This document shows, piece by piece, positions 10,750-33,608 of a stretch of DNA of 64,000 nucleotides. Under the pieces are notes generated by a model. That model saw only the letters and a program-made list of their open reading frames with translations. It made no database searches and was not told the DNA's origin. Within the stretch, counting starts at the first letter, position 1. Each line of letters starts with the position of its first letter. The translations under genes and the position numbers were made by a program. Source of the stretch: Solwaraspora sp. WMMD792 (lineage in GTDB: Bacteria; Actinomycetota; Actinomycetes; Mycobacteriales; Micromonosporaceae); contig NZ_JARUBH010000009.1 of the NCBI RefSeq assembly GCF_029626105.1, positions 5,828,001 through 5,892,000 of the forward strand. Direction: 5' to 3'.

Positions 10750-10794
10750 ACAGCGGCACCCCGGTCACCGAAGAGGTGACCGGGGTGCCGCTGT
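10750..10794 (-). terminator. Very strong hairpin terminator after yceI
   Basis: A perfect 20-base-pair stem with a five-base loop (GAAGA at 10770-10774). On the minus strand it starts 27 bases after the yceI stop and is followed by a T-containing stretch (TCTGTAGTAAC). It also isolates the GCL-like gene from yceI. Confidence 0.88.
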
Positions 10795-10820
10795 GTCGCG
10801 CCGGGTACGGGCGCCGTGGT

Positions 10821-11396
10821 TCACCCCTGACGGATGGCTTCGCCCTCGATCTCGATCTTGATCTTCTTGCCGACCAGCACGCCGCCGGTCTCCAGGGCGA
10901 CGTTCCAGGTCAGGCCGAACTCCTCACGGTCGATCTCGGTGCTGGCGGTGAAACCGAAGATGTCCTGGCCGAACGGGCTGCGGCCGGCGCCCTCGAACTC
11001 GACGGCGAGCTCCACCGGCCGGGTCACGTCCTTGACCGTCAGGTCACCGGCGAGCACGAACTCGTTGCCGCTGTGCGAGACGATCCCGGTGCTGCGGAAC
11101 TCGATGGTGGTGAACTTCTCGACGTCGAGGAAGTCGCCGCCGCGCAGGTGGGCGTCCCGGTCGGCCTGCCCGGTGTTGATGCTGGCCGCCTGCAGCACCG
11201 CGGTGACCGACGACTGCAGCGGGTCCTCGGCGACGGTGATGGTGGCGGTGGCGTCGGTGAACTCACCGCGGACCTTGCTGACCATCATGTGGCGGGCGAC
11301 GAACCCGACCCGCCGGTGGGCCTGGTCGAGCTCGTAGGTGCCGGCGGTGGGGATGGTGATGCCGTTCCACTCGCGGGTGGTCTGGTCGGTGCTCAT
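10821..11396 (-). CDS. YceI family lipocalin-fold protein
   Basis: A 191-residue YceI protein: GTYELDQAHRRVGFVARHMM near the start, RGEFTDATATI, a RDAHLRGGDFLDVEKFTTIEF segment, LTVKDVTRPVELAVEF and GLTWNVALETGGVLVGKKI near the end. YceI proteins are beta-barrels that bind long isoprenoid or amide lipids. There is no signal peptide, so this one is cytoplasmic, as is common in actinobacteria. Its promoter sits between it and the divergent MarR gene, and repression by that MarR protein is likely from the arrangement. A strong terminator follows. Confidence 0.92.
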   Translation of the reverse strand: MSTDQTTREWNGITIPTAGTYELDQAHRRVGFVARHMMVSKVRGEFTDATATITVAEDPLQSSVTAVLQAASINTGQADRDAHLRGGDFLDVEKFTTIEFRSTGIVSHSGNEFVLAGDLTVKDVTRPVELAVEFEGAGRSPFGQDIFGFTASTEIDREEFGLTWNVALETGGVLVGKKIKIEIEGEAIRQG

Positions 11397-11450
11397 GGCT
11401 GCTGCCTCTCGCGGACATCCGGTTGAAGGGGGAACATGTGCGACAGCAAC

Positions 11451-11479
11451 AATAGACTAGGCAATATTCCTCATGTCAA
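11451..11479 (-). promoter_or_regulatory. Promoter of yceI
   Basis: On the minus strand TTGACA (11479-11474) and TCTATT (11456-11451) are separated by exactly 17 bases. The predicted transcript starts near 11445 and would carry a leader of about 50 bases with a GAGAGG ribosome site. The spacer contains the AATATT core at 11463-11468, a plausible MarR contact. Confidence 0.6.
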
Positions 11480-11486
11480 GTACTGC

Positions 11487-11492
11487 TACGAT
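11487..11492 (+). promoter_or_regulatory. -10 element of a leaderless marR promoter
   Basis: TACGAT fits TANNNT and ends six bases before the GTG at 11499, placing the transcript start at the start codon. No Shine-Dalgarno precedes the GTG, which supports leaderless translation. Confidence 0.5.
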
Positions 11493-11498
11493 GACCTG

Positions 11499-11990
11499 GT
11501 GACCGAGAACCTCGCCGACGATCCCCGGATCACCGCGATCGGCCTCCTCTTCGAAGTCCACACCGGGCTCGCGGCCCGCTTCGCGGCGCAGTTCGAGGAG
11601 CACGGCCTGTCGACGGTCGAGTTCGAGGTGCTGATGCGGCTGCGCCGTTCCGCAGGTCACCAACTGCGGATGACCGACCTAGCCGCTCAGGCTGCGCTGT
11701 CCACCAGTGGCGCGACCCGGGTGGTCGACCGGATGGTGCGCGACGGGCTGGTCTGCCGGCGCGCCTGCCCATCCGACCGGCGCAGCTCGTACGCGGTGCT
11801 CACCCGGGCCGGTCAGCAACGCCTCGACGACACTCTCCCCGGTCACCTACAGCTGATCGACAAGTGGTTCACCGGTCAGTTCGCGCCTGCGGAGTTGACG
11901 ACGCTGCTCGACACCCTCCGACGCCTTCGTGACGCGGTGCATCCGCAGGCAACCGCCGGCAGTGACGAAGCGACCGCGCCGGTGAGTTGA
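11499..11990 (+). CDS. MarR family transcriptional regulator
   Basis: A 163-residue winged-helix protein. The DNA-binding part is LSTVEFEVLMRLRRSAGHQLRMTDLA..., with recognition helix STSGATRVVDRMV and the wing RRACPSDRRSSYAVLT ending in the usual Gly-rich turn. Flanking helices would form the dimer interface. It is divergent from yceI across about 100 bases, the usual layout for a local repressor. The GTG start follows a TACGAT -10 at leaderless spacing; an upstream frame to 11436 would cross the yceI promoter and is rejected. The ligand is unknown. Confidence 0.88.
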   Translation: MTENLADDPRITAIGLLFEVHTGLAARFAAQFEEHGLSTVEFEVLMRLRRSAGHQLRMTDLAAQAALSTSGATRVVDRMVRDGLVCRRACPSDRRSSYAVLTRAGQQRLDDTLPGHLQLIDKWFTGQFAPAELTTLLDTLRRLRDAVHPQATAGSDEATAPVS

Positions 11991-12183
11991 CCGACGCCGG
12001 CACCGGCAGAAGGACCGGCAGAAAGCACCCTCGATCAACGACATAAGGCCCTGAAAGCCGCAAACAGCTCGGATGGGCCGGATAGCGTACTGGCGACCGG
12101 GAACGTAACGGGGGGTGCGGCGCGAAGGCCAGGACAGTGGTCCAGGCCGGGGGGCGATTCCGCGCCAACCCGGGGGGCGTGTC

Positions 12184-12223
12184 GACGTCCGGCGGGTGGC
12201 CAGTGATGGCCCCGCCGGACGTC
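12184..12223 (-). terminator. Hairpin terminator after the STAND regulator gene
   Basis: A perfect 13-base-pair stem (GACGTCCGGCGGG with CCCGCCGGACGTC) encloses a 14-base loop. It lies 17 bases beyond the stop of the minus-strand gene and faces the end of marR. Confidence 0.75.
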
Positions 12224-12239
12224 CGCGTCTTGACCTGAT

Positions 12240-14885
12240 TCAGCCCTGACCCACCGCGTCCCGTTCCCGGGGAAGCAGCGTGATCCCGGCACTGTGGCAG
12301 GCCGCCGCCAACCGGTCCCGGGCCGCAGCCCGCGACACCGCCGTCTCGGCGTGCACCACCAGCCCCACCATCGCCTCCAACGCGTCCCGCGGCTCCGGGC
12401 CGTTGCCCAGCGAACGGGCCGCCACGGCGTACCACTCCATCGCCAGCTCCCGTTCCCCGCGCCGCGCCGCGAGGGTCGCCTCGATCAACGCGCACCGGGG
12501 ATCGTCGTCCGGCCCGGCGTGGTCGGCATGGTGGACCGGCCGGTCCACCATCTCCACCGGCATCACCTGACCACGGAGCTCGGTCAGGGCGTCGGCCGCT
12601 TCCGCGAGGCGGCCGTCCTGGGCCAGCGCCAGCCCGACGATGCCCAACACCTGCCGCCGATGACTCGGATCACCGACGGCGGTCAACGCCGCCAACACCC
12701 GGCGTCCCAGGTCGGCTGCCCGCGCGTACCGGCCCTCCAACCTGGCCACCTCGGCCAGGTTGGCCCGGGCCAGCAGCCGCAACCGGTCCTCGCCGGACCT
12801 GGCCGCGAGCCGGTCGACCGCCGCCAGCCGGCGTCGGGCGGCCCGGAGGTCACCCGACCGGATCTCGTGCCGGGCCAACGCGTGCTGGGCGAGCGTCATC
12901 TCCCGGATCCGGCCGATCCGGCCGGCCAGGGCGAGCACCGCCTCGGAGTGCGCCCGCGCCTCGTCGAACCGACCGGCGGCCAGGCAGGCGGCGCTGAGCA
13001 CGGTACGCGCGGCCAGCTCACCCGACGTCTCCCCGAGCTCGATGAAGGTGGCCAGCGCCGACCGGACGGCCGGCAGTTCCTGCGGACCGGCGTCGTGCTC
13101 CAGCGCGAGCTGGGCCACGCCGATCTGGGCCCAGGCCCGGATCGCCAGGTCCGCGTCGGCCAACTGCGGGTCGTCGAGCAGCCGGCGCAGCCAGCGCCGG
13201 CCGGCCACGTCGCGCCCCCGGAACCGCCACCACCGGGGCAGGGCGGCGGCCAGCCGCAGGGCGGTGTGCGGGTCGTCGTTGGCGGAGTGGGCGAGCGCGG
13301 CCCACAGGTCACTGGCCACCTCGTCGAGCCGACTGACGACGGTGACCAGCTTCGGCCCGGCCAGGTCGACCGCCGCCCGCTCGGCGAGCCGCGCGAACAG
13401 CACGGCGTGCCGCCGCCGGATCGCCGACAGTTCGCCGTGTGCGGCGGCCCGCTCGGTGGCCAGGTCCCGCACCACGTCGATCAGCCGGAACCGGTACGGA
13501 CCCGCGCCCCGGGCACCGAGCAGCCCCAACGACATGAGCCGGTCGAGGAACGGCACCGGGTCGACCCGACCGTCCTGATCCGACCGGCTCATGTCGGGCT
13601 GGCCGATGTCGAGTTGCCCAACATCCGGCTGGACCGGATCCTCGGCGAGCATCCCCTCGGCCAGCTCGACCGACCACCGGTTGCGGAACACCGAGAGCCG
13701 ACGTACGCCGCGCCGCTCGGCGGGCGTGAGCAGCGCGTAGCTTGCCGCGACCGCGTCGCGCAGGGTCACCGCCACGGCTTCCCTGCTGGGTGGTGGCACG
13801 GCCAGGTCGAGCAGCCGGTCGCCGTACCGGTTGAAGATCTCGTTCAGGTCGAGCGCCCGCCCCCGGGCGGCGGCCAGCTCGATGGCCAGCGGCAGCCCGC
13901 CGAGCCGCCGGACGAGCCCGACCAGCGCGCCGACCTCGCCGGGGTGCACCGGTTCCCGGCGTACCTGCCGGAGCCGGGCCAGGAAGAGCCGCGCCGCCGG
14001 GTAGCCGGCGACCGTGGCCAGGTCGGCCTCGGTGTCGGCCGGCGGCACCTCCAGCGGCGTGACCGGCCAGACCCGTTCACCGGGGAGCCCGACCGGGTGC
14101 CGGCCGGTCGCCACCACCTGCAGCGACGGCGCGGTACGGGTCAGCCAGTGCAGCGCGTCGGCCATCGCCACCGGCGCCCGTTCCACCGCGTCGACCAGCA
14201 GCAGTGCCGGGCCGTCGGCGAGCCGGGCCGCCAGATCGTTGACCCGCCCGACGCCGAAGACGGTGGCGGTGGCGGTCAGTACGTCACTGACGGTGGAGCC
14301 TTCGGTGACGACGATGCCACCGGTGCCGCCCGGGTACCGGTCGGTCACCTCGGCGGCGACCGCGAGCGCCAGGCTGGTCTTGCCGACTCCGGCCAGTCCG
14401 ACCAGGCTGATCAGCCCTGCCCCGGCACCGGGTCCCGCAGTCAGCAGGCCGACGAGGTCGGCCACGTCGCAGTCGCGGCCGATCAGCTCGCCGGGCAGCG
14501 GGACGCCCCGGCTACGGCCGGGCCCGACCAACGTCTCGATGTCGCCGGCAGCCTCGCTGGGCGGCCCGGCCGGGAACGCCGTGGTGGCGAGTGCGGGGGT
14601 CAGCTGGCGCGGGATCGTCGGACGCGGCTCGGCCGGCCGGCCCCGCGCCGCCGCGTGAAACTCGGCCCGGTCCTCTCCGGTCAGGCCGAGCGCGGCGACG
14701 AGCAGATCGACCGTGGTCCGCTGCGGGCGGGCGGTACGGGCCCGTTCCAGGTCCCGGACGGTACGCACGCCGACCCCGGCCACCGCGGCGAGCTCCGCCT
14801 GGGTCAGGCCGACGGCCAGCCGTCGGCTGCGGAGTAGTTCGTCGAACCCGACCCTGCTCTGGTCAGGAGCATGATCCGGACTCAT
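12240..14885 (-). CDS. Large XRE-STAND ATPase-TPR regulator
   Basis: An 881-residue signalling protein. Residues about 13-62 are an XRE helix-turn-helix (LLRSRRLAVGLTQAELAAVA, GVGVRTVRDLERA). Residues about 130-420 form an NB-ARC-like ATPase: Walker A GLAGVGKT at 163-170, Walker B LLLVDAVERAP near 230, and a GGLPLAIELAA motif. The C-terminal half is helical with TPR-like repeats (for example ARANLAEVARLEGRYARAADL). This is the AfsR-like scheme without a BTAD domain: ATP-driven assembly on ligand sensing would control DNA binding. Targets are unknown. Start ATG at 14885. The plus-strand frame through the whole gene is a GC-rich shadow. Confidence 0.88.
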   Translation of the reverse strand: MSPDHAPDQSRVGFDELLRSRRLAVGLTQAELAAVAGVGVRTVRDLERARTARPQRTTVDLLVAALGLTGEDRAEFHAAARGRPAEPRPTIPRQLTPALATTAFPAGPPSEAAGDIETLVGPGRSRGVPLPGELIGRDCDVADLVGLLTAGPGAGAGLISLVGLAGVGKTSLALAVAAEVTDRYPGGTGGIVVTEGSTVSDVLTATATVFGVGRVNDLAARLADGPALLLVDAVERAPVAMADALHWLTRTAPSLQVVATGRHPVGLPGERVWPVTPLEVPPADTEADLATVAGYPAARLFLARLRQVRREPVHPGEVGALVGLVRRLGGLPLAIELAAARGRALDLNEIFNRYGDRLLDLAVPPPSREAVAVTLRDAVAASYALLTPAERRGVRRLSVFRNRWSVELAEGMLAEDPVQPDVGQLDIGQPDMSRSDQDGRVDPVPFLDRLMSLGLLGARGAGPYRFRLIDVVRDLATERAAAHGELSAIRRRHAVLFARLAERAAVDLAGPKLVTVVSRLDEVASDLWAALAHSANDDPHTALRLAAALPRWWRFRGRDVAGRRWLRRLLDDPQLADADLAIRAWAQIGVAQLALEHDAGPQELPAVRSALATFIELGETSGELAARTVLSAACLAAGRFDEARAHSEAVLALAGRIGRIREMTLAQHALARHEIRSGDLRAARRRLAAVDRLAARSGEDRLRLLARANLAEVARLEGRYARAADLGRRVLAALTAVGDPSHRRQVLGIVGLALAQDGRLAEAADALTELRGQVMPVEMVDRPVHHADHAGPDDDPRCALIEATLAARRGERELAMEWYAVAARSLGNGPEPRDALEAMVGLVVHAETAVSRAAARDRLAAACHSAGITLLPRERDAVGQG

Positions 14886-21684: not shown

Positions 21685-21820
21685 GCACCCGGCGGTTAGC
21701 GAGCCGTGCCGAGGGGCACCGGCCACCCGGGCGCGGTAGATTGACCGCCGCCGCCACCGCGTACCCGGCCCGCTGCCGGGAGCGGCGCGGCACCGCCGGA
21801 CAACCCGCCGAGAGGTGATC

Positions 21821-23401
21821 GTGGCTGCCCCGAGGGCGAGCGTCGTCGTACCCGTCTACAACACCGAGGCCTGGCTCGGCGCGGCTCTGGCGTCGATCGA
21901 CCGTCAGCCACGAAGGACCGAGATCGAGGTCGTCGTCGTCGACGACGGCTCCACCGACGCGTCGAGCGAGATCGCCCGCGACTACGCCCGGCGGGCGCCG
22001 GGGGTCCGCTACGTCCGGCAGGACAACGCCGGTCTCGGTGCCGCCCGCAACCACGGGGTACGCCTGGCCACCGGCAACTTGCTGGGTTTCCTGGACTCCG
22101 ACGACCTCTACCCCGACGGCGGGCTGGACCACCTGGTCGACATCGCCGAGCGGGCCGGGGCGCCGGTGGCGGTCGGCGACATGCACGGCTTCCCACCCCG
22201 GCCCAGCCCGCCCTGGCGGGCGGAGATCGTCGGCCCGGCCCGCACCATCGGGTCCGTCGCCGAGGCCCCGCTGCTGATCGGCAACCCGTCGGCCTGCAAC
22301 AAGGTGTTCGCCCGCGACCTGGTCGACCAGGTCGGGGCCGAGTTCACCGAGGGCAGCGCGTTCGAGGACGTCCTGTTCACCGTCCCGTTGCTGGTCCGCT
22401 CCCCGCTGACCGCGCTCAGCCCACGACTGGTCTACCTCTACCGGCAGCGCGGCAACGGCTCGTCGATCATGGAAGGCCGGTTCCGGCCGGCGAAGATCAT
22501 GCAGCATCTGAACATCATCGAGCGGCTGGTCGCCGGTAGCTCCGACGTCGCGCCCGAGGTGGCCGGGGCGATCGGACGGTGGGTCGCGTACATGCAGCTG
22601 CACTACGCCGGGCGGGCCGCCGAGGCCCTCGACGACGGGCAGCTGGCCGATTTCACCCGCCGGATGGCGGCGCTGCTGGCCGACGTACCGGTGCCGGTCG
22701 CCGCCGAGTTCAGCCGCAACCCGCACGCCGGGCTCCGCGCGGTCGCCCTCTACGAGCAGGACCCGGACGGAGTACGCCAGCCCCGGCACACCGGCCCGGT
22801 CCGGCTCCGCGGCGGGCAGCTCTACCTCGACCATCCGCGCTGGGACCGCTACCGGGACCTGCTGCGGGTACCCGCGCCGACCGTCGGTGTGCACAGCGTC
22901 CGCCGCAGGGGCCCGGCCGGCGACGAGGTGGTCCGGTTGACCGGGTGGTGCGGCCTGCCCGGCCCCGGCGGCGCCCCCGGCGACCAGCGGGACGACCTGG
23001 TACTGGAGATCGGCGACACCCGGTTGCGGCTGCCGCTGACCGTGGCCGACGGCAGCGGCGGCCAGCTCCGTTGGCGGGTCGACGTACCGCTGGCCGCGCT
23101 GCCCCGCGGCCGGTACGCGCTGCGGATCGTCGCCCGCGACGGCGGCGCCGAACTGGTGCTCCCGCCGGCACCGGGCGCGCCCGGCACCCGGGCGACGCTG
23201 ACCGCCCGGGGGCGTGCCGTGTGGGTCGCACCCGGCCGCCGTGGGCTGCGTCTGGTGGTCTCGGACCCGCTGGTCACCGCCGCCGCGACACCGGCAAGGT
23301 GGAGCCGGATGGCCCGCTACCAGGCCGGCCGCGCGGCGCGGCGCGGGGTCCGAGTGGCCCGCCAGGGCCGGCAACGGCTGCGCCGCCTAGCCGCCCGCTG
23401 A
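21821..23401 (+). CDS. Family 2 glycosyltransferase with C-terminal extension
   Basis: A 526-residue protein. The N-terminal 210 residues are a GT-A fold: SVVVPVYNTEAWL, VVVVDDGSTDASSE (37-50), GLGAARNHGV and the DXD-type LDSDD at 91-95. The middle is helical, as in polymer-forming transferases. The C-terminal 170 residues are rich in Arg, Pro and Gly, with beta-like segments that I do not recognise. No membrane helix is visible. The GTG at 21821 is preceded by GAGAGG at five bases; the earlier GTG at 21815 overlaps that site. Two further GT2 genes lie downstream, so all three probably build one surface glycan or teichoic-acid-like polymer. Confidence 0.85.
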   Translation: MAAPRASVVVPVYNTEAWLGAALASIDRQPRRTEIEVVVVDDGSTDASSEIARDYARRAPGVRYVRQDNAGLGAARNHGVRLATGNLLGFLDSDDLYPDGGLDHLVDIAERAGAPVAVGDMHGFPPRPSPPWRAEIVGPARTIGSVAEAPLLIGNPSACNKVFARDLVDQVGAEFTEGSAFEDVLFTVPLLVRSPLTALSPRLVYLYRQRGNGSSIMEGRFRPAKIMQHLNIIERLVAGSSDVAPEVAGAIGRWVAYMQLHYAGRAAEALDDGQLADFTRRMAALLADVPVPVAAEFSRNPHAGLRAVALYEQDPDGVRQPRHTGPVRLRGGQLYLDHPRWDRYRDLLRVPAPTVGVHSVRRRGPAGDEVVRLTGWCGLPGPGGAPGDQRDDLVLEIGDTRLRLPLTVADGSGGQLRWRVDVPLAALPRGRYALRIVARDGGAELVLPPAPGAPGTRATLTARGRAVWVAPGRRGLRLVVSDPLVTAAATPARWSRMARYQAGRAARRGVRVARQGRQRLRRLAAR

Positions 23402-23449
23402 TACCGACCGATCACTGAGGTCGACTGGCGTCGACTGGCCGGCGGCCGG

Positions 23450-24181
23450 TCAGGGATCCTCGGCCAGCAGGTCGGCGCGGCTGTCGCCGAGCAGTTCCCG
23501 CAGCCGCGACAGGGAACGCCGGCTCTGGGTCTTGACCACCGACACCGAGACGCCGAGCGTCTCGGCGACGGTCTCGACGCTCTGGTCCTCCCAGTAGCGC
23601 AGCACCACGATCGCCCGGTCGCGGGGCGGCAGACAGCCGAGCGCGTCGATCATGGTGATTCGCAGATCGGGCCGGGCGGATCGGGCCGGATCCCCGTCCT
23701 CACGAGGGCTGGCGATCGGCAGTTCCCGCGCGCTCAGCCGGCGGCGGTGGTCGAGCACCACCCGTAACAGCACCTTGCGGCTGTACGCCTCCAGATTGTC
23801 GAACCGGGACACCCGCTGCCACGCGGCGTACATCTTGGCCAGTGCCGTCTGGGTGAAATCCTGGGCCAGATGCCAGTCGCGGCACATCAGGTAGGCGGTG
23901 CGGCGCAACCGTGGCGCCGCAGCCGAGGCGAACGCGACGAACTCCTCCTCCACCGCCCCGGACGGAGCCCGGTCCGCCGCCCTCGATCCGTCCAGGGCCG
24001 TGGACGCGGATACCGCCTGGTCGACGGCGGGTCGCGGCTTGCCCACCACATGCCCGGGCAGGATGATCTCAGCCCCGCCGTACACACTGCACTCCCATGC
24101 CTGGGCACCCTCCCCGGTGTGGACCTGCCGGTGTCCGACCCCTGCTGTGATAGACGTCGCGTGGGCGGCGATCGGTGACAT
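23450..24181 (-). CDS. SigE-family RNA polymerase sigma factor
   Basis: An ECF-like sigma factor. Region 2 is EEEFVAFASAAAPRLRRTAYLMC followed by DWHLAQDFTQTALAKMYAAWQ; region 4 is LGCLPPRDRAIVVLRYWEDQSVETVAETLGVSVSVVKTQSRRSLSRLRELL. Actinobacterial SigE-family members (about 170 residues) usually begin right at region 2, so the 70-residue N-terminal part here is unusual and the start at 24181 is uncertain; a GTG just before the EEEF segment would give a standard-length protein. It lies between glycosyltransferase genes on the opposite strand. No anti-sigma factor is adjacent. Confidence 0.86.
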   Translation of the reverse strand: MSPIAAHATSITAGVGHRQVHTGEGAQAWECSVYGGAEIILPGHVVGKPRPAVDQAVSASTALDGSRAADRAPSGAVEEEFVAFASAAAPRLRRTAYLMCRDWHLAQDFTQTALAKMYAAWQRVSRFDNLEAYSRKVLLRVVLDHRRRLSARELPIASPREDGDPARSARPDLRITMIDALGCLPPRDRAIVVLRYWEDQSVETVAETLGVSVSVVKTQSRRSLSRLRELLGDSRADLLAEDP

Positions 24182-24334
24182 GGGCGGGAAAGTCCCGGAC
24201 GTTCGCCAACTGGTCACCAGCTGTTAGCCTTTTGCCAGGGCCCCCTTCCCCTACCCGACGGACGATGTCGGACCGACGGTTGACCCCCGCCGCCGGACCG
24301 ACGCACCGACGTACGTGGAAGGCGCGCTGCACCG

Positions 24335-25540
24335 ATGGCACTGCTGAGCTTGATCATCCCGGTGTTCCGGGTCGAGAAGTACCTCGCAGCGTGCCTCGAC
24401 TCGGTCCTGGCGCAGCGTCGGGCGGACGTGGAGATCGTGGCGGTGGACGACGCCTCCGATGACGGGTCCAGCGCCATTCTGGCCAGCTACGCACAGCGAC
24501 ACCCCGAGATCACCGTGGTCACCCTGGACCGCAACAGCGGGCTGGGCGCCGCCCGCAACGCGGGTATCGCCCACGCCAGCGGTCGCTACGTATGGTGTGT
24601 GGACAGCGACGACTGGTTGCCGGACGGCTCGCTGAACGCGGTCGCCGACCGGCTCGACCACACCGACCCGGACATCTTGATCACCGGGTACTCCCGGGTC
24701 TATCCCGACGGCCGGGCCGAGGAACATCCGGTCACCGGCATCGCCCCGGGCCGCCAACTTCCGGAGGTCTTCCGCTTCGCCGACGAGCCAGGGCTGCTCG
24801 ACGTGCTGTGGATCGCCTGCAACAAGGTCATCAAGCGGGACCGGTTGATCGACACCGGGATCACCTTCCAGTCCGGCTGGTACGAAGACGTCTCGTTCGT
24901 GATCCCGCTGCTGGTCGCCATGGACCGGATCGCCGTGCTGGATCGCGACTGCTACGCGTACCGGCAGCATGACGACGGCGCGATCACCCGGACGGTCAGC
25001 GACCGGCACTTCGAGGTCTTCGACCAGTGGCAGCGGGTCTTCACCTACCTCGACGCCCACCCGGGCCGGGCCGCCGCCCTGCGCCCGCTGATCTTCGGTC
25101 GGATGATCTGGCACTGCCTGCAGGTACTCGGGCACCCGCACCGGGTCCCCAGGTCCCACCGGCGGCGCTACTTCCGGCGCACCTGCGAGCTCTACCGCCG
25201 GCATCGGCCGGCCGGCGGGTACCCGGTGCCGGGCAACGGCAACGAGACGGTCAAGCACCGCCTCGTCGGGGCGAACGCCTATTCTCTCTACCAGACGCTG
25301 ATGGCCGTCTGGTCACTGCGCAAACGGGTGCCCGGCCGGGCCGACCGGACCAGTCGGGCCAGCAGAGCCAGTCGAGCCGCTGGAGCCGGTGGAGCTGCTG
25401 GGGCCGGTGAAGCTGCCGGAGCCGGTGGGCGGCCGACCACAGCCGGTCGGACACCGCCGCCAACGGCGGCGCGGCCCGGCACCGTACCCGCCCGAGGTGG
25501 TGCGGTCGACGACGAAGCCGAGGAGGGGGCGATCAGGTGA
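24335..25540 (+). CDS. Family 2 glycosyltransferase
   Basis: A 401-residue GT-A enzyme: LSLIIPVFRVEKYLAACLDS, VAVDDASDDGSS (36-47), NSGLGAARNAGIAHASG and VDSDD at 89-93, followed by the acceptor-side segment WYEDVSFVIPLLVAMDRI. The region to about 330 is conserved-looking; the last 70 residues are a low-complexity Ala/Gly/Pro/Arg tail built from short repeats. The final codons overlap the next glycosyltransferase gene in a GTGA junction, so both act together. The sugar and acceptor are unknown. Confidence 0.88.
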   Translation: MALLSLIIPVFRVEKYLAACLDSVLAQRRADVEIVAVDDASDDGSSAILASYAQRHPEITVVTLDRNSGLGAARNAGIAHASGRYVWCVDSDDWLPDGSLNAVADRLDHTDPDILITGYSRVYPDGRAEEHPVTGIAPGRQLPEVFRFADEPGLLDVLWIACNKVIKRDRLIDTGITFQSGWYEDVSFVIPLLVAMDRIAVLDRDCYAYRQHDDGAITRTVSDRHFEVFDQWQRVFTYLDAHPGRAAALRPLIFGRMIWHCLQVLGHPHRVPRSHRRRYFRRTCELYRRHRPAGGYPVPGNGNETVKHRLVGANAYSLYQTLMAVWSLRKRVPGRADRTSRASRASRAAGAGGAAGAGEAAGAGGRPTTAGRTPPPTAARPGTVPARGGAVDDEAEEGAIR

Positions 25541-27537
25541 GGCGCGACGCCGGCTCCGACGCCTCCGCGCCGGCCGGCAGCCGGATCACCTGGCGCCTCA
25601 CCGGACTACCGGCACCCCACCCCGCCGAACGGCTCGGCCGCGCGGTGGGGTTGCGGGTGCTGCGGATACCCGGTATCCGGCGCGCGTTGGTGATCGCCGG
25701 CACCGTGGACCGGCTACGCGACCTGCCCCACCACCCGTCGGCCGGTCAGCCGGTACGCGCTGCCACCGTGGTCGTCGTCTGGTGGCGGTACCCGGGGCTT
25801 GGCTGGTCCGGCAGCGTCGGCACGTTGCCGCAGCTGCGTCGGCACCGGGTCGGGCTGCCCAGGCTGCGCCGAGGCGCGGCCACCGTCCGGCTGGCGCTCG
25901 CCGCCCCGGTGCCGCTGCGGTCAGCGGTACGGGCAGCGCTGCGCGCGTTGGACGGGTCTCGGCCGATGCCGTCCCCCGGCACCGCCGACGTCACCGCCGT
26001 TGGTGCCCCGCCGGCGTACCTGCCGGCGGGGGCGACCGTGCTGACCGCCGGACCGCTGCCGGAGCGCGACGAGATCCGCGCCCACGACCTGGTGCTGGAC
26101 GGCCGGGATGCCACCGGCCCGCAGGATCCCGGCCGGGATGCCACCGGCCCGCAGGGCGAGCGCAGCGCTGCGTACGGTGTCCGGTTGGCCGGCACCGGGC
26201 ATGCGGTCACCACGCCCGCTGGCGAGCGGCTCGTCCTGATCGACGCCGAACGGATCAACCCGCGGGGCCGGCTGGCTGCCGCGTACCGGCCGGAGGCGGC
26301 AGAGATCTCCCTGGAGTTCGCCCGCGCCGACCGGTCCGGGGCCAGGTTCCGCGGACCGACCAGCGGATCAACCCGATACGGGTCACTGACCGGCCCCGGG
26401 CTGGACGCGGCGGCGCTGGCCGCGCTGCGGCAGGTCCGCGCGGTGCACTGTCGGCTGGTGCCCGGTGAACACCCCGAGCAGACCGCCGGGCTGCTGGTCC
26501 AGCTCGCCGCGACCGGGGTACTCGTGCACGCCCCGATCCTGCCGCCGGCCGTGGCCGACCTACTCGACCCGCAGCTACGCGTGCTCGTCACCGGACAGCC
26601 GCCCGGATCAGCCGGGCCGGACGGGTCAGACAGGTCAGACGGGTCAGCCGGGCCGGACGGGTCGTTGGCTGTCGAGGCGCGCAGCGTACGGCAGCGCCGG
26701 GCCGCGATGCGCGGCCATGCCGCAGGGCTGCGGCTGCCCGGCCTCGCCGACGGCGGGCTGCCGGCACTCGGTCGGCCGCCGTCGGTCAGCGCGGTCCTGA
26801 TCACCCGGCGGCCGGAGCTGGTCACCACCGCGCTGGCCGCGATCATCGCGCAGACCTATCCGGAGATGGAGATCATCCTGGGCCTGCACGGCATCGAGTT
26901 GCCGGAGTCGGCCCGCCGGGCGTTGTCCGACGCGGGCCGCCCGTTCGAGGTGCTGCACCTGCCGGAGTCGGTCGACTTCGGCGCCGGGCTCGCAGCGGCC
27001 ACCCGGCGCGCCCGCGGCACCCTGATCACCAAGTTCGACGACGACGACAGCTACGGCGTCGAACACGTCTGGGACCTGGTGCTGGCCCGGCACTACTCCG
27101 GGGCCACCCTGGTCGGCAAGGGTGCCGAGTTCGTCCACCTGGACGATCAGGGCGTCACCCTCCGTCGACGGTCCGGCATCCCGGAGGCGTACGGCGGAGT
27201 GGTCGCCGGTGGCACGATGCTGCTCGCCAAGAGCGATCTGGAGGCCGTCGGCGGCTGGCGCCCGGTGCCCCGCTCGGTCGACCTCGGGCTGATCGAGCGG
27301 CTCCGGGCGGAGGGCGCCACCGTCTACCGCACCCATCCGCTCGGCTATCTCTACCACCGGCGGCCCACCGGACACACCTGGGATCCGGGCGAGGCGTACT
27401 TCGTGGACAGCGCGTACTCCCGCTGGACCGGCGTCCCACCGGAGGCGATGGGCGACGAGGTCACACCACCATCGACGGAAGCGGCCAGCGGCGCAGCCGG
27501 TGCGGCAACCAGACCAGTTGGTCGCCCACCTTCGTGA
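25537..27537 (+). CDS. Two-part protein with a C-terminal family 2 glycosyltransferase domain
   Basis: A 666-residue protein. Residues 1-410 form an Arg/Ala/Pro-rich region with no recognised domain, interrupted by two repeats: a tandem GRDATGPQ unit near 190-206 and a Gly/Ser/Asp-rich stretch near 355-375. Residues 417-625 are a GT2 catalytic domain: VSAVLITRRPELV, QTYPEMEIILGLHG, KFDDDDS (499-505), the GGTMLLAKSDLEAVGGWRPV acceptor loop and YLYHRR. It is coupled to the upstream transferase by GTGA. Its last 25 codons run antisense over the end of the DUF5825 gene. The role in glycan assembly is inferred from neighbours. Confidence 0.8.
   Translation: MRRDAGSDASAPAGSRITWRLTGLPAPHPAERLGRAVGLRVLRIPGIRRALVIAGTVDRLRDLPHHPSAGQPVRAATVVVVWWRYPGLGWSGSVGTLPQLRRHRVGLPRLRRGAATVRLALAAPVPLRSAVRAALRALDGSRPMPSPGTADVTAVGAPPAYLPAGATVLTAGPLPERDEIRAHDLVLDGRDATGPQDPGRDATGPQGERSAAYGVRLAGTGHAVTTPAGERLVLIDAERINPRGRLAAAYRPEAAEISLEFARADRSGARFRGPTSGSTRYGSLTGPGLDAAALAALRQVRAVHCRLVPGEHPEQTAGLLVQLAATGVLVHAPILPPAVADLLDPQLRVLVTGQPPGSAGPDGSDRSDGSAGPDGSLAVEARSVRQRRAAMRGHAAGLRLPGLADGGLPALGRPPSVSAVLITRRPELVTTALAAIIAQTYPEMEIILGLHGIELPESARRALSDAGRPFEVLHLPESVDFGAGLAAATRRARGTLITKFDDDDSYGVEHVWDLVLARHYSGATLVGKGAEFVHLDDQGVTLRRRSGIPEAYGGVVAGGTMLLAKSDLEAVGGWRPVPRSVDLGLIERLRAEGATVYRTHPLGYLYHRRPTGHTWDPGEAYFVDSAYSRWTGVPPEAMGDEVTPPSTEAASGAAGAATRPVGRPPS
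26101..26155. repeat. 25-base unit duplicated with a 30-base period inside a glycosyltransferase gene
   Basis: Two identical units at 26101-26125 and 26131-26155, period 30, encode two in-frame copies of GRDATGPQ. The period is a multiple of three, so the frame is kept. Confidence 0.85.
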
Positions 27538-28183
27538 CCAGACCCTCCTCGCCGAACTCGCGGGCGATGTCCAGGTCGACAGTGGTCATCCCGGCACCAT
27601 CGAGCAGCTGCTCCAGCACCGCCAGGTACGCCGGGTCGTCGATGGTCAGCAGGTTGAGCCGACCGGCCCGCCGGTCCCGGACCTGGACGAACCCAGGGCC
27701 ACGCCGGTAGGTGCACTTGTCGAAGTAGAACGCGTCCCGCCAGGCGGCAGCGGCCACCGTCCCCGGGTCGGAATCAGGGTCGGAGCCGGCGGCGTCAGCG
27801 GCGCCCGCCGCGCCGGCGATCTCGACCGTCGCCGGCGGACGCAGATGCCCGTACACCCGCCACAGGTCTCCGTCGCCGCCCGGCAGCCGTATCGACCAGT
27901 CCACCTCGATCGCGTAGCTGGTCAACTCGCGGACCAGGACGAGCCGGCGGACCGCATCGGCCGCCGCCACCGAGTCGGCGGCGGTGAGGTCGACGGTGCC
28001 GGGCAGCGCCACCTTGCGTACCCCCCGGTCGAGCCAGTCCGCGACGGTGTCGGCGGCGGACCCGGTGAACTCGGCCGTGCCCAGGTCGATGCCGGGAATG
28101 TCGGCGACCGCCGGATCGTGGTCCCGGTGCAGCCGGACCACGACCGGCCCGGTCGGCGGCGCCTCGATGTCGGTGCTGATCAA
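27461..28183 (-). CDS. DUF5825-type RiPP cluster protein
   Basis: A 240-residue soluble protein. I place it in the DUF5825 family, which I recall as a frequent neighbour of RiPP-maturation radical SAM genes; this was not checked by search. Visible features: VVVRLHRDHDPAVADIPG near the start, a VRKVALPGTVDLTAADS segment, a WRDAFYFDKCTYRRGPGFVQVRDRR motif near residue 155 and an LDGAGMTTVDLDIAREFGEEGLV end region. It begins 13 bases after the radical SAM stop, so it is in the same transcript. It may be a substrate-binding or helper subunit for the radical SAM enzyme. Its 3' end overlaps the convergent glycosyltransferase ORF by 77 bases. Confidence 0.75.
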   Translation of the reverse strand: MISTDIEAPPTGPVVVRLHRDHDPAVADIPGIDLGTAEFTGSAADTVADWLDRGVRKVALPGTVDLTAADSVAAADAVRRLVLVRELTSYAIEVDWSIRLPGGDGDLWRVYGHLRPPATVEIAGAAGAADAAGSDPDSDPGTVAAAAWRDAFYFDKCTYRRGPGFVQVRDRRAGRLNLLTIDDPAYLAVLEQLLDGAGMTTVDLDIAREFGEEGLVTKVGDQLVWLPHRLRRWPLPSMVV

Positions 28184-28196: not shown

Positions 28197-30149
28197 TCAG
28201 ACGGCGGTGAGCGCGGGCTCGGACGCGGGGTGCCCGGCGGACGTGGCCGGGTCCGCCGACGCGGCTTCCGCCTGCGCGGCGGCCCGCTCCTGGTGCAGGT
28301 GGTCGATCCGGAGCAGGTCCTGGTTCATCGCCTGCGGTGCGATCTGGATGAACTGGTCGGCGTCGCTGAACAGCAGGCCGAGGTCACTCCAACGGGCGAG
28401 CAGCGTGGCCACCGCCTCCTCCGACGCGGAGATCCGCCGGGCCAGTGAGGCGACGCTGTGCGGCTGGTCAAGCTGCCGGAAGGCGGCGATCTCGGTCGGA
28501 TCCGTCAACCGCAGCACATGCCAGTCGAACTGCCGCCGTTCGCTGACCAGCACGATCTCGGTGCCGAGGTCGTGGTGGGTCAGCCGGCTGCGGGCGTACT
28601 CGTGCTGCCAGCCGGTGACGGCCCGGTCGAGGGTTTCGGCGAGGTCCTCGTCGATGCCCTGGGTCGGGGTGTCGAAGATGTACGCCAGGTCCATCAGCTC
28701 CGACTCGGGCAGGTCGTAGATGAGCCGGTACTGGGCGGCCGGCCGCAGGTCGGTGAAGCCGAGTTCCGGCTTGACGAAGTACGGGCTGAACCGTTCGATG
28801 GCGATCCGGGTGCTGCCGTCGGGTGGGCAGAGGTGGTGCAGGGCCGGCATCTGGTCGATGATCGACTGGTAGTCGGCGTCGGACTCGCCGGGGAAGCCGT
28901 ACAGGTAGTTCCAGGCGATGGTGATGCCGCTGGTCTCCGCATCGCGCAGCATCCGCACGTTGAGGCAGCCGGTCACCCCCTTGTCCATGATCTTCAGGAC
29001 CCGGCTGTTCAGGTTCTCGATGCCCGGCTGGACGCTGACCAGGCCGGCGTCGGCCAGGGCCTGCACCTGCGGACCACGCATGTTCGACTTGATCTCGTAC
29101 TGCAGCCGCAGGTCGTAGTCGGATTCGGCCAGCCGGGGCAGCAGCGAGTTGACGTAGCTCATGTCGAGGATGTTGTCGACGACGAACATGTCCAGCACCT
29201 GATGGCGCTCGACCAGCCCGATGATCTCGTCGTAGAACCGGCCGGGATGCTTGCTGCGGAACTGCATGAACGAGCCGTTGAGCCCGCAGAAGGTGCAGTG
29301 GTGCTTCTCGCCCCACCAGCAGCCGCGGGCGCCTTCCACCACCAGTCGGGGCTCGACCCAGTGGTTCGCCTTGGAGCGGGCCAGGCGCTCGAAGTAGCCG
29401 GTGTAGTCCGGGCTGACGATCTCCGCTGGCGGCAGCGGTGCGGTGCTCATCGGGTTGGCCACGTGCCGGCCGTCCGGGGTGGCCCAGCACAGGCCCTCGA
29501 TGCTGGAGAAGTCGGCGTGGTCGTCCGCCGGTGCGGCCGCCAGTGCGGCGAGCAGCTGGGGGAACGCGGCCTCGCCTTCGCCGCGTACCACGAAGTCGAT
29601 GAAGGAGAAGTTGCGGTGCAGCGCCGCGCCCTGCTCGCCGTCGCAGTTCGCCCCACCGAGGGCGGTACGGATCCGGGGGTCGAGTTTCTTCACCGCCCGG
29701 GCGGTCGCCAGCGCTGCGGTGTTCTGCTGGAACGTCGAGGTGAATCCGACGAGGTCGGGTGCCCGGTCGACGATTCGGGCGGCGATCTCGTCGATGAACT
29801 CCGGCGCGGACCGGTGCAGGTCCACGTTGCGGCTCAGGTCCCGCTCGGACATCTGGCCCTGCACCCGGCTGCTGAACTCGCTGACCCGCCACTCAGGGTC
29901 GTCGTAGAGGGCGGAGGAGAAGACCCAGTCACCGCAGCCGGAGAAGTAGGTGAACAGCGAATAGTAGTAGTAGTCACCGAGGCCGAACTCGCGCCGATCG
30001 ACCACCCAGTCGACGAAATCGAGGTTGGCGTGCATCACTTCGACCTCGGCGTCCGGCATTTTCTGGCGGACGCTGTTGGTGAGGATGCCCAGTGCCAGCG
30101 ACGGGACATCGATCGATGACCACGGCATGTTGACCAGCAGGATCCGCAT
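28197..30149 (-). CDS. B12-binding radical SAM RiPP maturase (probable C-methyltransferase)
   Basis: A 650-residue protein in three parts. Residues 1-200 are a B12-binding-like Rossmann domain (MRILLVNMPWSSIDVPSLALG, DLVGFTSTFQQNTAAL, DFVVRGEGEAAFPQLL). Residues about 265-510 are the radical SAM barrel, with the iron-sulfur cysteines at 277, 285 and 288 in the order CWWGEKHHCTFCG. This CX7CX2C spacing, not the usual CX3CX2C, marks the RiPP-maturation radical SAM type 1 group. Residues about 550-610 look like a winged helix that could hold the leader peptide. The group typically methylates unactivated carbons in peptides. The substrate is most likely the 33-residue peptide encoded just upstream. 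Start ATG at 30149; the longer frame to 30302 is not supported. Confidence 0.88.
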   Translation of the reverse strand: MRILLVNMPWSSIDVPSLALGILTNSVRQKMPDAEVEVMHANLDFVDWVVDRREFGLGDYYYYSLFTYFSGCGDWVFSSALYDDPEWRVSEFSSRVQGQMSERDLSRNVDLHRSAPEFIDEIAARIVDRAPDLVGFTSTFQQNTAALATARAVKKLDPRIRTALGGANCDGEQGAALHRNFSFIDFVVRGEGEAAFPQLLAALAAAPADDHADFSSIEGLCWATPDGRHVANPMSTAPLPPAEIVSPDYTGYFERLARSKANHWVEPRLVVEGARGCWWGEKHHCTFCGLNGSFMQFRSKHPGRFYDEIIGLVERHQVLDMFVVDNILDMSYVNSLLPRLAESDYDLRLQYEIKSNMRGPQVQALADAGLVSVQPGIENLNSRVLKIMDKGVTGCLNVRMLRDAETSGITIAWNYLYGFPGESDADYQSIIDQMPALHHLCPPDGSTRIAIERFSPYFVKPELGFTDLRPAAQYRLIYDLPESELMDLAYIFDTPTQGIDEDLAETLDRAVTGWQHEYARSRLTHHDLGTEIVLVSERRQFDWHVLRLTDPTEIAAFRQLDQPHSVASLARRISASEEAVATLLARWSDLGLLFSDADQFIQIAPQAMNQDLLRIDHLHQERAAAQAEAASADPATSAGHPASEPALTAV

Positions 30150-30317
30150 GTGCCCTTCCCTTCTATGCGAGCCGCGACCGACGATCCCGGTCAGCGCGGG
30201 TGTCGGAGGTGGACAGGATTCCCGGTGGGATGGTGAGGTCGGCGCCGATGGGATGGAGGCGGTCAGGCGATGCCGGCCAGGGCGCGACCCGCCCGCCTCC
30301 ACCCCGTACGACCCAGA

Positions 30318-30419
30318 TCAGAACTTGATCTTGACCGATACCGTGACCGTGATGTTCGCGCTGCGAAGCTGGTCGCGGTTGCCGTTGATCGGGTCGTTCT
30401 CGACAACGTTCTTCCGCAT
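30318..30419 (-). CDS. RiPP precursor peptide (33 residues)
   Basis: A short gene hidden between the peptidase and radical SAM genes. It begins MRKNVVENDPINGN, continues RDQLRS and ends ANITVTVSVKIKF. A near-perfect Shine-Dalgarno (AGGAGGTGA) ends five bases before the ATG, the strongest ribosome site in this cassette. The first 20 residues are charged and polar, as in a leader. The last 13 alternate beta-branched and polar residues (I-T-V-T-V-S-V-K-I-K) like a beta-strand, offering several Val, Ile and Thr side chains for radical C-methylation. There is no Cys, so lanthionine, thiazole or sactionine chemistry is excluded. The leader/core border is not known; the 20/13 split is inference. Confidence 0.82.
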   Translation of the reverse strand: MRKNVVENDPINGNRDQLRSANITVTVSVKIKF

Positions 30420-30426
30420 GCCGTTC

Positions 30427-30433
30427 ACCTCCT
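30427..30433 (-). promoter_or_regulatory. Strong ribosome binding site of the precursor gene
   Basis: AGGAGGT on the minus strand, within GAGAGGAGGTGAACGGC before the ATG. The match to the 16S rRNA tail is far better than for neighbouring genes, as expected for a highly expressed peptide. Confidence 0.8.
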
Positions 30434-30474: not shown

Positions 30475-32301
30475 TCAGGCCACTGGCCGCGCCATCGCGA
30501 GCGCGACCGCCGTACCCTCCTCCTGCACGCCGTCGAAGTGCCGCTGCATGAACAGCAGCACGGTCTGCATCAGCGACAGATGGCTGCGGGCGTCGAAGTC
30601 GTCGTGCCCGGCCCGGCGGCGAACCAGCTGATGCGGAACGCGGCGGGCGGCCAGCAGGCCGGCGTACCGCTCCACCGGGGCCGGCGGGCAACGCACGTCG
30701 TCGCTGGAGACGGCGAGCAGCACCGGCGCGGTCACCTGGTCGACGTAGCTGGCCGGCGACGACCGGGCGTACGCCTCGGGAACCTGCTCCGGGGTGCCGC
30801 CGAACAGCATCACGTCGAGCGCCTGGACCGCCGGGGACGCGGCATGGAACGCGGCGGCGTAGTCGGCGATCGGGCTGATCGCCACCCCGAGACGCCACAG
30901 CCGGGGCTGCACCCCGAGGGCGAGCAGGGTCAGATAGCCACCCCACGAGGTGCCCCACAGGGCGACCCGTCCCGCCTCGATCAGACCTTCGGTCACCAGA
31001 TGCTCGCGGACCGCCGCCAGATCGGCGACCTGGGTCAGCCCGACGCCGGAGCTGAAGTCGTTACGCCAGGCGGAGCCGTAGCCGCTGGACCCCCGGTAGT
31101 TGGCACGCACCACCGCGCAGCCGGTGCTGGCCAGGATCTCCACCAGCGGGTCGTACGCGTCCCGCGCGTGCTGTGACGGTCCGCCGTGGACCAGGAACAC
31201 GGCGGGACGGGTACGCCGGTCGTCGTTCGGTGTGGTCAGCAGCACGTGGATCGGCCCGCCCGGCCCCGGCACCCACAGCTCCTGCCGCTGGTAGTCGTCG
31301 ACCGTGGCGGACGCCGCCGGGTCCGGACCGGCGCCACTGTCCGGCAGCCGTACGTCGCGGCCCGACCGTAGCTGCGGCGGGGTCAACGAGTCGGTCCAGA
31401 TGTAGACGACGTCGCCGTCCGGCCAGACCGCCGCGTCCAGCACACTGCCCGGCGGGGTCGGCAGCACCGCGCTGGCCCGCACCGTCAGGTCGGCCTCGTG
31501 CAGGATCGTATGGGCGTGCCGGTCCTGACGAATCAGGATCCGCCGGCCGTCCGGATACCAGCTCGCGGTGATCTCGGTGTCGAACCAGCACCAGCTGTGC
31601 GGCTGCAGTCCGTCGGCCCGGGTCCAGGTCGCCGGGAAGTACCGGTCGTCCTGCTCCAGCACGAGCAGCAGCCGGGGTTCGCCGCCGTCGGGGGCGAAGC
31701 CGAGCGCCCAGACCCGCCGATCCGGCCGGCCGGACACCACTCCGACGGTGGTCCCGTCGCGGCCGACGACGGTCACGGCGTCCGCGGCGGCCGGGTCGGT
31801 GCCGACCGCCGCCAGCTCACCGGTCGGGTCCAGGTCGACCAGGTACGCGTACCCGGCGGTCCGGGTGACCTCGGTGATCCGCCCGTGCGGGTCGCGCCGG
31901 TGCAGGGTCAGGCCGTCGTCGTCGGCGAGCCCGACCAGGGCGGTTCCGTCGTCGGCCATCGCGATCCCGGCGTGCCGCGCCGGCGTCACCCCGGGCAGCG
32001 CCGGAGCCGAGACCGGCGAGGTGGCCTGGTCGGTGGCGCTGTTCGGGAAGTCGCGGGTACGCCAGACGCCCACCCCGGCGAGGTCGTCGTCGAACCACCA
32101 CACCGTCTCGCCGTCCGGGTCCAATGCGGCCCGGATCGTTCCGGTCGCCCGGTCGGTGAGCTGGGTGACCGTGTCGGTCCGGCGGTCCCAAGCCAGGATC
32201 TGGCATCGACCGTCGGCGTCGCCGACGTAGACCACCCGGTGCGGCGCGTGCTCGGCGACCACCGGAAGTGCCGGATAGAACAGTCGGTATTCACGGCTCA
32301 T
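30475..32301 (-). CDS. S9 family (prolyl oligopeptidase-like) peptidase, probable leader peptidase
   Basis: A 608-residue protein with an N-terminal beta-propeller (about 1-330) and a C-terminal alpha/beta hydrolase. The triad is clear: Ser452 in GTSWGG, Asp534 or Asp535 in VSSDDVRCPP, His566 in RAGHDDF; the oxyanion region is FLVHGGPSQH. No signal peptide, so it acts in the cytoplasm. In S9 enzymes the propeller limits access to short peptides, which suits removal of a leader from a 33-residue precursor. Its start overlaps the MFS stop (ATGA) and its stop lies 55 bases before the precursor start. The leader-cleavage role is inferred from position. Confidence 0.88.
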   Translation of the reverse strand: MSREYRLFYPALPVVAEHAPHRVVYVGDADGRCQILAWDRRTDTVTQLTDRATGTIRAALDPDGETVWWFDDDLAGVGVWRTRDFPNSATDQATSPVSAPALPGVTPARHAGIAMADDGTALVGLADDDGLTLHRRDPHGRITEVTRTAGYAYLVDLDPTGELAAVGTDPAAADAVTVVGRDGTTVGVVSGRPDRRVWALGFAPDGGEPRLLLVLEQDDRYFPATWTRADGLQPHSWCWFDTEITASWYPDGRRILIRQDRHAHTILHEADLTVRASAVLPTPPGSVLDAAVWPDGDVVYIWTDSLTPPQLRSGRDVRLPDSGAGPDPAASATVDDYQRQELWVPGPGGPIHVLLTTPNDDRRTRPAVFLVHGGPSQHARDAYDPLVEILASTGCAVVRANYRGSSGYGSAWRNDFSSGVGLTQVADLAAVREHLVTEGLIEAGRVALWGTSWGGYLTLLALGVQPRLWRLGVAISPIADYAAAFHAASPAVQALDVMLFGGTPEQVPEAYARSSPASYVDQVTAPVLLAVSSDDVRCPPAPVERYAGLLAARRVPHQLVRRRAGHDDFDARSHLSLMQTVLLFMQRHFDGVQEEGTAVALAMARPVA

Positions 32302-33608
32302 CGGCGTGCCTCCTCTGCCACGGGTTCGGTCGTCGCCGCGTCGGGTTCGGTCGGCGTCGCGTCGTCTGGTGGGTCCTCCGCCCCGGCGCGCAGTTGGCGC
32401 AGGTTGACAGTCGTGTAGACGGCCAGCCCGGCCAGTGCGGCGGCGAAGATCAACGCGACCGCGGTCGGGCTGTACCAGGCGACGAGCAGGCCGGCGAGCA
32501 GCGGCGCCGGGGTCTGCAGCACCTCGCCGGCGGTGCCCATCACGGTGCCGACCCGACCCTGTAGCTCGTCCGGCGTCAACGCGATGACCCGCGACTGGAA
32601 GATGACCCCGAGCAACGGGCTGAGCAGGAAGACCAGGCCGAAGAGCAGGCCGTACGTCCAGGTCTGCCGGGCCTGCGACATGGCCGCGACCAGGGCGACC
32701 ATCGCCCAGGAGGCGACGACGATGACGGTCATCGGCCGGACCCGGCTGAACACGGCGGGCGCCAACAACGCGCCGGTCAGCCCGCCGACGCTGGCCACGG
32801 TCAGCACCAGGCCGATCGACGACGCGGCCGCGCCCTGCTGCCCCGCAGTCAGAATCGCGTAGTAGATGAGTGCGCCGAAGGTAAAATTGATCCCGGCAGC
32901 CCAGATGGTCACGAATCGTAGAAACGGCTGGCGCCACACGAAGCGCAGGCCGTCCCGCAGATCGGTGAGGAACGACGTGCGTTCGGCACGATCCGGGGTG
33001 AGATCGGTGCGGATCGCGCTGACCAGGAATGCGGACACCACATATGACACGGCGTCCACCAGGAATGGCACCCACCGGCTTATCTGGTAGAGTGCGCCGC
33101 CGAAAACCGGACCGACGATCTGTACGGCGTGATTGCGCGCCTCCAGCCGGGACAGCGCCTTCTTGTCGTCGGCCGGTAGCACCCGGCGAATCGAGCCCGC
33201 GCCGGCCGCCTCGTAGCCGCTCTGGGCGAGCCCTTCGACGAAGGCGGCGGCAGCGAGCACCACCAGGGTCGCCGTACCGCTGGCGACCGCGACGAAGAGC
33301 ACCGCCATCGTGGCGGCGGCCAGCAGTAGTGACGCCACCATCATCCGTTTGCGGGGCAACCGGTCGGCCAGTACGCCGGCCGCAGGCGCGGCGACAAGTC
33401 GACCGGCCAGGGCCAGCGCGCCCACCAGACCGGCGGCGGCCGGTGAGCCGGTTATCGCGAGGGTGACCAGCGGAAAGACGATGCCGGAGGTCTGCGACCC
33501 GAGTTGGTCGACGGCCCCGGCTATCCAGTACAGCCGGAAATCCCTCTTACGATTTCCATCAGTCGGCGTTGAATCAGCGGTTGAGGCAGCGGTCATCACT
33601 TCGGCCAC
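32298..33608 (-). CDS. MFS transporter, probable exporter of the RiPP
   Basis: A 436-residue protein with about twelve transmembrane helices and an MFS loop motif (GVLADRLPRKRMM) after helix 2. It resembles the enterobactin-exporter-like (EntS/MFS_3) group. It is the first gene of the RiPP transcript and overlaps the S9 peptidase gene by ATGA. Export of, or self-protection against, the modified peptide is the natural role, by context. The GTG at 33608 opens the frame and an ATG at 33596 is an alternative; neither has a convincing Shine-Dalgarno. The last 40 residues are an acidic Pro/Thr/Glu tail. Confidence 0.87.
   Translation of the reverse strand: MAEVMTAASTADSTPTDGNRKRDFRLYWIAGAVDQLGSQTSGIVFPLVTLAITGSPAAAGLVGALALAGRLVAAPAAGVLADRLPRKRMMVASLLLAAATMAVLFVAVASGTATLVVLAAAAFVEGLAQSGYEAAGAGSIRRVLPADDKKALSRLEARNHAVQIVGPVFGGALYQISRWVPFLVDAVSYVVSAFLVSAIRTDLTPDRAERTSFLTDLRDGLRFVWRQPFLRFVTIWAAGINFTFGALIYYAILTAGQQGAAASSIGLVLTVASVGGLTGALLAPAVFSRVRPMTVIVVASWAMVALVAAMSQARQTWTYGLLFGLVFLLSPLLGVIFQSRVIALTPDELQGRVGTVMGTAGEVLQTPAPLLAGLLVAWYSPTAVALIFAAALAGLAVYTTVNLRQLRAGAEDPPDDATPTEPDAATTEPVAEEARR

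Follow-up and report, generated by a model that had tools for sequence, protein, structure and literature searches.

We analyzed a window of 64,000 nucleotides from the genome of Solwaraspora sp. WMMD792 (Micromonosporaceae), in which a frame of 33 codons is, we hold with high confidence, a real and conserved gene for the precursor of a clavusporin-type ribosomally synthesized and post-translationally modified peptide (RiPP). The frame (30318–30419, minus strand), first picked out in an original prediction made without database searches, translates to MRKNVVENDPINGNRDQLRSANITVTVSVKIKF followed by a stop codon. Five nucleotides upstream of its ATG lies the near-perfect Shine-Dalgarno sequence AGGAGGTGA (30425–30433, minus strand), which had also been noticed and which occurs only once in the whole window (no copy on the plus strand, one on the minus strand). 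The peptide matched no profile in the NCBIfam and Pfam libraries. Its probable leader covers about residues 1–20 and its probable core about residues 21/22–33 (ANITVTVSVKIKF), in which V/I alternate with mostly T, S or K. This alternation of beta-branched and polar residues, as well as the absence of Cys from the entire peptide, agreed with the original description.

The gene is part of a cassette in the order MFS exporter, S9 peptidase, precursor, B12-binding radical SAM enzyme and DUF5825 protein, all on the minus strand. The same order had been proposed for the flanking genes, and Pfam or NCBIfam profiles matched all four neighbors. The MFS exporter (32298–33608, minus strand; PF07690, 3.9e-32) overlaps by 4 nt with the gene for the S9 (prolyl oligopeptidase family) peptidase (30475–32301, minus strand; PF00326, 9.9e-35), in which a GTSWGG motif is found at residue 450. 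On the other side of the precursor are the B12-binding radical SAM C-methyltransferase, or maturase (28197–30149, minus strand; TIGR03975, 616 bits against a cut-off of 281.85), and its predicted partner, the DUF5825 protein (27461–28183, minus strand; PF19142, 2.2e-61). The usual spacing of the Cys residues in radical SAM proteins is CX3CX2C. The corresponding motif of the maturase, which begins at Cys277, is CX7CX2C, and this spacing was kept in 38 of 38 aligned relatives.

Conservation of the precursor and its cassette

We examined the loci of the best 80 of 519 confirmed maturase relatives, most of which are more distant from the window. A motif search of short frames 5' of the maturase, which required K, [DN] and P at fixed positions, identified a frame with the leader motif in 75 of the 80 loci. 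A motif-free scan (ribosome-site match of at least 5 bases, 18–70 amino acids, 900 nt) recovered the motif peptide at 65 of all 80 loci. Among the five loci missed by the motif search, the available sequence begins 106 and 37 nt 5' of the maturase in L044 and L059, respectively; in L006, ten N lie between the peptidase and maturase genes, so its precursor may sit in an assembly gap; and no frame with the leader motif was found 5' of the maturase in L046 and L080. The other components were similarly frequent: DUF5825 was matched in 79/80 loci (the remaining locus, L028, ends before that place), the S9 peptidase in 73/80 and the MFS protein in 69/80.

Of the 7 species in the genus of the window, 6 had the maturase at E ≤ 1e-180, as did 13 of 354 Micromonosporaceae genomes at E ≤ 1e-260. 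All 13 of these genomes had a precursor of the same type, designated MRK-type, together with its ribosome site, and all four neighboring genes were matched in the twelve other genomes. Most MRK-type loci have a Shine-Dalgarno sequence that comprises at least GGAGGTGA; that of L113 is shorter. One genome (L119) encodes a peptide identical to that of the window, and MRK-type precursors were also present in a genome whose maturase matched only partly (L122) and in an Actinokineospora (L069). The MRK-type is thus conserved but patchy: each genome with a close maturase keeps the precursor, yet few genomes of the family have the maturase. DUF5825 as such is more common (51/354 genomes of the family, 7/7 in the genus). 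Conservation of the frame and its ribosome site, which the original prediction had set as its own check, was therefore found at the level of both genomes (13/13) and loci (75/80 and 65/80). In the maturase tree, nine Micromonosporaceae sequences, L080 among them, clustered with a support of 98/95, and L069 sat close by at the end of a long branch; 32 Streptomycetaceae sequences made up a separate group (100/99). The deeper order of the tree is unsure because of long branches.

Comparison of 67 distinct precursor peptides (11 MRK-type and 56 MQK/MEK-type) revealed common features in the leader. Residues 5 and 6 were hydrophobic in all 67 peptides, none of which contained Cys; K3 and [DN]9-P10 were also constant in 67/67, but these had been required by the search pattern. 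The leader of the MRK-type follows the pattern MRK[NSR]-[VI][VI]-x-NDPI-[NS]-GNR[DE]Q-x-R, with an invariant Arg19. Residues 1–19 were identical in nine copies of 102 nt, all amino acid changes being located C-terminal of them, whereas shorter MRK copies (31–32 residues) vary in the leader too. Counted from the C-terminus, all 11 MRK-type peptides have F at −1, I/V at −3, V at −5 and −9, and V/I at −7. The positions between are mostly occupied by K, S or T and sometimes by Q, A, E or G. The alternation spans 10–12 residues (p 0.001–0.0045 against shuffles of each core). Many Streptomyces peptides alternate likewise (for example, GITVTVPF), but one Streptomyces subgroup (GVGVVVYLRS, p about 0.6) and the MEKD peptides from the loci L012, L070 and L074, which had no peptidase and exporter matches, do not, so the V/I alternation is common but not universal. 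The core therefore diversifies while the beta-strand alternation persists in many lineages, and a gene that annotation is prone to miss is placed in a family found in Micromonosporaceae, Actinokineospora and Streptomycetaceae.

Additional variants were seen among related precursors. In another genus of the order, kin precursors (L120, from 1243 on, and L121) have cores that are almost purely beta-branched, VVVVVVIIVRR and VIVVVVVIVRR, located after ...NRARP. One Streptomyces (L045, 5599–5898) has two tandem precursors with different cores, which start at −402 and −216 relative to the maturase.

A hairpin 3' of the precursor

We also detected a GC-rich hairpin, absent from the original prediction, 12 nt 3' of the precursor stop codon (30250–30305, minus strand). 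Its stem of 13 bp, including one G-T pair, is formed by positions 30293–30305 and 30250–30262, and no T-run follows it in the window sequence. The hairpin is strong in most relatives and weaker in the window; most of the related Streptomyces loci also have hairpins 3' of the precursor. Inverted repeats were tested in 84 spacers, many of them from close kin, with 30 dinucleotide shuffles each (L016, with 323 nt, was left out, and L055 equals L056). The longest perfect inverted repeat beat all 30 shuffles in 62 spacers and did not in the other 22, which include the window and five genus mates; in the window it measures 9 bp, a length reached by 1 of 30 shuffles. Local folding of the first 80 nt gave a median z of −3.44, with 70 of the 84 spacers below −2 (window, −2.55) and 14 not (for example, L069, −1.78; L094, −1.86; L096, −1.24). 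Folded over its full length, the window spacer did not reach significance (z −0.20).

In an alignment of MRK-type loci (A3), the stem was paired in 82% of cells, compared to 49–55% when slid and 77% when shuffled, and 6 of 13 stem pairs had changed on both sides; the stem tested had been taken from the window sequence, a choice in its favor. One of five measures, that of further pair types, went against the stem, its value being reached by 480 of 500 shuffles. With a fresh alignment, RNAalifold put the 3' arm in the wrong place and supported the stem weakly, with one compensated pair of seven. A terminator scan could not have detected the hairpin because its loops were limited to 3–8. The best reading of these sequence data is an element that would stabilize the transcript or partially terminate it, keeping the substrate above the enzyme. 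In one relative (L075), two consecutive strong hairpins were found in the first 80 nt 3' of the precursor, before the maturase (z −6.40).

Relation to clavusporins, proposed maturation and alternatives

Several features of clavusporin-type systems are present in the cassette, i.e., the B12-radical SAM maturase, the DUF5825 partner, the S9/prolyl oligopeptidase and a shared leader motif. Clavusporins are known from Streptomyces, and the title of the report on them announces surface activity and a developmental role (Zhang et al. 2025 Nat Chem Biol). In passages that cite the clavusporin work, a homologous B12-radical SAM/DUF5825 pair is credited with C-methylation (PMC12257519) and the prolyl oligopeptidase MpcP with leader removal (PMC12951456); the window has the same enzyme pair and type of peptidase. 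Plasmids of S. clavuligerus carry the genes MFS – alpha/beta hydrolase – radical SAM – DUF5825, with the hydrolase named S9 peptidase in a second record. Between hydrolase and maturase we found MQKDVIHNDPLAGDEENRKPSVGITITVPFRNAEDADED, a short peptide whose leader reads M-x-K-x-[VI]-I-x-NDP-[IL] and whose core, as in the window, is of the alternating beta-branched kind. The window maturase is 62% and the DUF5825 protein 38% identical to the S. clavuligerus homologues. We infer that this plasmid gene set is the published clavusporin operon and that its maturase is the clavusporin maturase. The abstract of the clavusporin report is said to deal with surface tension and aerial hyphae and to describe the operon as found widely among actinomycetes. 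No CDS is listed for MQKDVIHNDPLAGDEENRKPSVGITITVPFRNAEDADED in two annotated plasmid records of S. clavuligerus, so the precursor gene is left unannotated in these records of kin. The proposal that such genes are too small for gene callers is partly supported by this; the PLSDB gene table is incomplete.

Taken as a whole, the reading of the frame as a clavusporin-type precursor that is matured, trimmed and exported deserves good confidence. The original idea of a RiPP precursor accompanied by a C-methylating enzyme pair, a peptidase and an exporter was supported by the comparative evidence, with the chemistry being predicted. In this pathway, the hairpin would hold the level of the precursor transcript above that of the enzyme transcript, and a RiPP recognition element (RRE)-like domain, located on DUF5825, at the C-terminus of the maturase or in both places, would bind the hydrophobic-NDP segment of the leader. 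The B12-radical SAM enzyme would then methylate unactivated core carbons, with the V/I face of the strand as the most likely site; by analogy, C-methylation is likely to be the main change to the peptide. The S9 peptidase is the predicted leader peptidase by analogy to MpcP (PMC12951456) and would cut near the invariant Arg19, alignment of the junction suggesting an Arg-anchored cut. Finally, the MFS protein would export an amphipathic beta-strand peptide of about 12–14 residues. A 33-residue substrate with a simple repeating core is compact and directly testable for iterative radical C-methylation.

The structural hypothesis for DUF5825 comes from its model, whose C-terminal domain (about residues 155–230) is possibly RRE-like, with a middling score. 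The model matched TbiB1 (5v1v, 5v1u), with unrelated entries within 1 Z. TbiB1 is the RRE protein of a lasso peptide pathway; different from it, DUF5825 has an extra N-terminal alpha/beta domain of about 150 residues. A PDB sequence search with DUF5825 gave no match up to E 10, and Foldseek gave none at E ≤ 0.001. In the maturase model, the C-terminus (523–602) consists of three strands, three helices and two strands, an RRE-like topology in element order only, because the structure search barely covered residues beyond 539. Profile comparison of DUF5825 and the maturase did not support kinship (probability 2.9%; C-terminal domains not aligned).

Several differences set the MRK-type peptides apart from the Streptomyces precursors. 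Pro20 was present in none of the 11 MRK-type peptides (one has Pro at 22), in contrast to 48 of 56 MQK/MEK-type peptides. The last 8 residues contained no acidic residue in 11/11 MRK-type peptides but at least 2 in 54/56 of the others. Furthermore, the MRK-type leader has GNRDQ instead of the GDEEN of Streptomyces (clavusporin-kind) precursors, and, unlike these, the MRK-type core ends at a C-terminal Phe, mostly with Lys. The Pro before the core and the acidic follower being absent from the MRK-type, we class the finding as a clavusporin variant; judged by the sequences, the MRK-type is a distinct subtype of clavusporin-type RiPPs. The claim that no characterized product has this tail held in that none was found in our searches, but the class itself, the clavusporin type, is already known. 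No Micromonospora homologue turned up in the largely open-access literature searched, a result that does not speak for its absence from the literature at large.

Judged by the clavusporins, the product is probably surface-active, and in the MRK lineage it is probably cationic as a rule; for an actual surfactant role, the analogy leaves the chances about even. A rather unlikely alternative keeps the precursor and its biosynthesis and makes the product a cationic membrane-active or self-assembling (antimicrobial or amyloid-like) peptide instead of a developmental surfactant. Lys occurs C-terminal of residue 20 in 9 of 11 distinct MRK-type peptides, the core alternates as an amphipathic beta-strand would, and the Streptomyces-type acidic tail is missing. 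On the other hand, 2 of 11 have neither K nor R there, and the gene set shared with clavusporins favors a clavusporin-like role. Single spores borne in the substrate mycelium are described for Micromonospora (PMC7760371), which makes a role in aerial hyphae less obvious, but aerial mycelium is reported elsewhere for a Micromonospora isolate (PMC10924685). A search for chaplins in 7 genomes was uninformative because all 7 were without a match, yet the controls were silent too. If the product is indeed cationic and assembling, the clavusporin class would have a second job. Somewhat more doubtful is the extended proposal that the MRK-type would form a class of its own, made up of C-methylated and mostly cationic beta-strand peptides that are self-complementary and assemble at membranes or interfaces, in actinobacteria for which a role in aerial hyphae is not obvious. 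In this proposal, RRE-like domains in DUF5825 as well as in the maturase would recognize the peptides, and the S9 cut would be anchored by Arg and not Pro.

It is improbable that the maturase performs another radical reaction on the core, such as crosslinking, epimerization or desaturation. The B12-radical SAM enzyme PbsB is described as forming a C-C crosslink between ortho-Tyr residues (PMC12257519), but the window core contains a single Phe and no Tyr, the maturase belongs to a C-methyltransferase family, and it is paired with DUF5825, a type of pair reported to methylate. In addition, no MNIO was found among the window proteins scanned with Pfam or NCBIfam, a scan that took in part of the frames. 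A biphenomycin-type crosslinker was rejected on these grounds (no Tyr in the core, no MNIO among the scanned proteins). Biphenomycin-type clusters (pbs/bpm) share a B12-radical SAM maturase with the window, and those with YHxYxY precursors also have a second B12-radical SAM enzyme with a DUF5825 protein, but at their center stand an MNIO, accompanied by its partner protein, and an aromatic motif (PMC12257519); the window precursor has no such motif. The B12-radical SAM methyltransferases TokK, CysS and TsrM also differ, their PDB titles naming pantetheinylated substrates or tryptophan, not peptides.

Two further alternatives concern the frame itself. An attenuation leader peptide, regulating the downstream enzymes together with the hairpin and not serving as substrate, would explain a short frame with a strong ribosome site and a hairpin just 5' of enzyme genes. 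We reject it as very improbable: the peptide pattern is conserved, with residues 1–19 identical in the nine 102-nt copies and a core that varies within the beta-strand pattern, the hairpin lacks a T-run after it, and the gene occupies the precursor place in a maturase family named for RiPPs. A chance frame, which is short and of a kind that high-GC genomes yield in large numbers, is refuted by the conservation across genomes (13/13) and, in the motif-free scan, across loci (65/80) and has a negligible probability.

Additional loci in the source genome and the window

Two more maturase/DUF5825 loci were identified in the source genome outside the window. The first (L091, G000:C9:494000-513000) is a second cassette with an S9 peptidase, a 57% identical maturase and DUF5825. 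Its precursor has the DPI leader box in common with that of the window and a different, longer core (MKRRSVRHDPITTSERERGAVIVKMLLDMDRAVPARRHDVTESAADKAPASE); it is nearly identical in L098 and L099 and similar in L123, and a perfect inverted repeat of 17 bp is located 3' of it. The second (L092, G000:C9:5443000-5462000, about 7862-12600) contains a third maturase (46%) with DUF5825. The short frame 5' of this maturase is quite different, with a GTG start and one Cys (MKILTIKKVTIKTPAHGTCKYLVPTRKAEK), and the locus is possibly of another RiPP type. Upstream is a protein that is ferritin-like by eye, with no Pfam match, and downstream is a frame that is P450-like by eye.

Next to the cassette in the window, three family-2 glycosyltransferase-like frames are present on the plus strand (21815–27537): 21815–23401, 24335–25537 and, more weakly, 25537–27537, the last of which overlaps the 3' end of the DUF5825 gene. 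Between them, on the minus strand, a frame at 23450–24217 matched sigma-70 regions.
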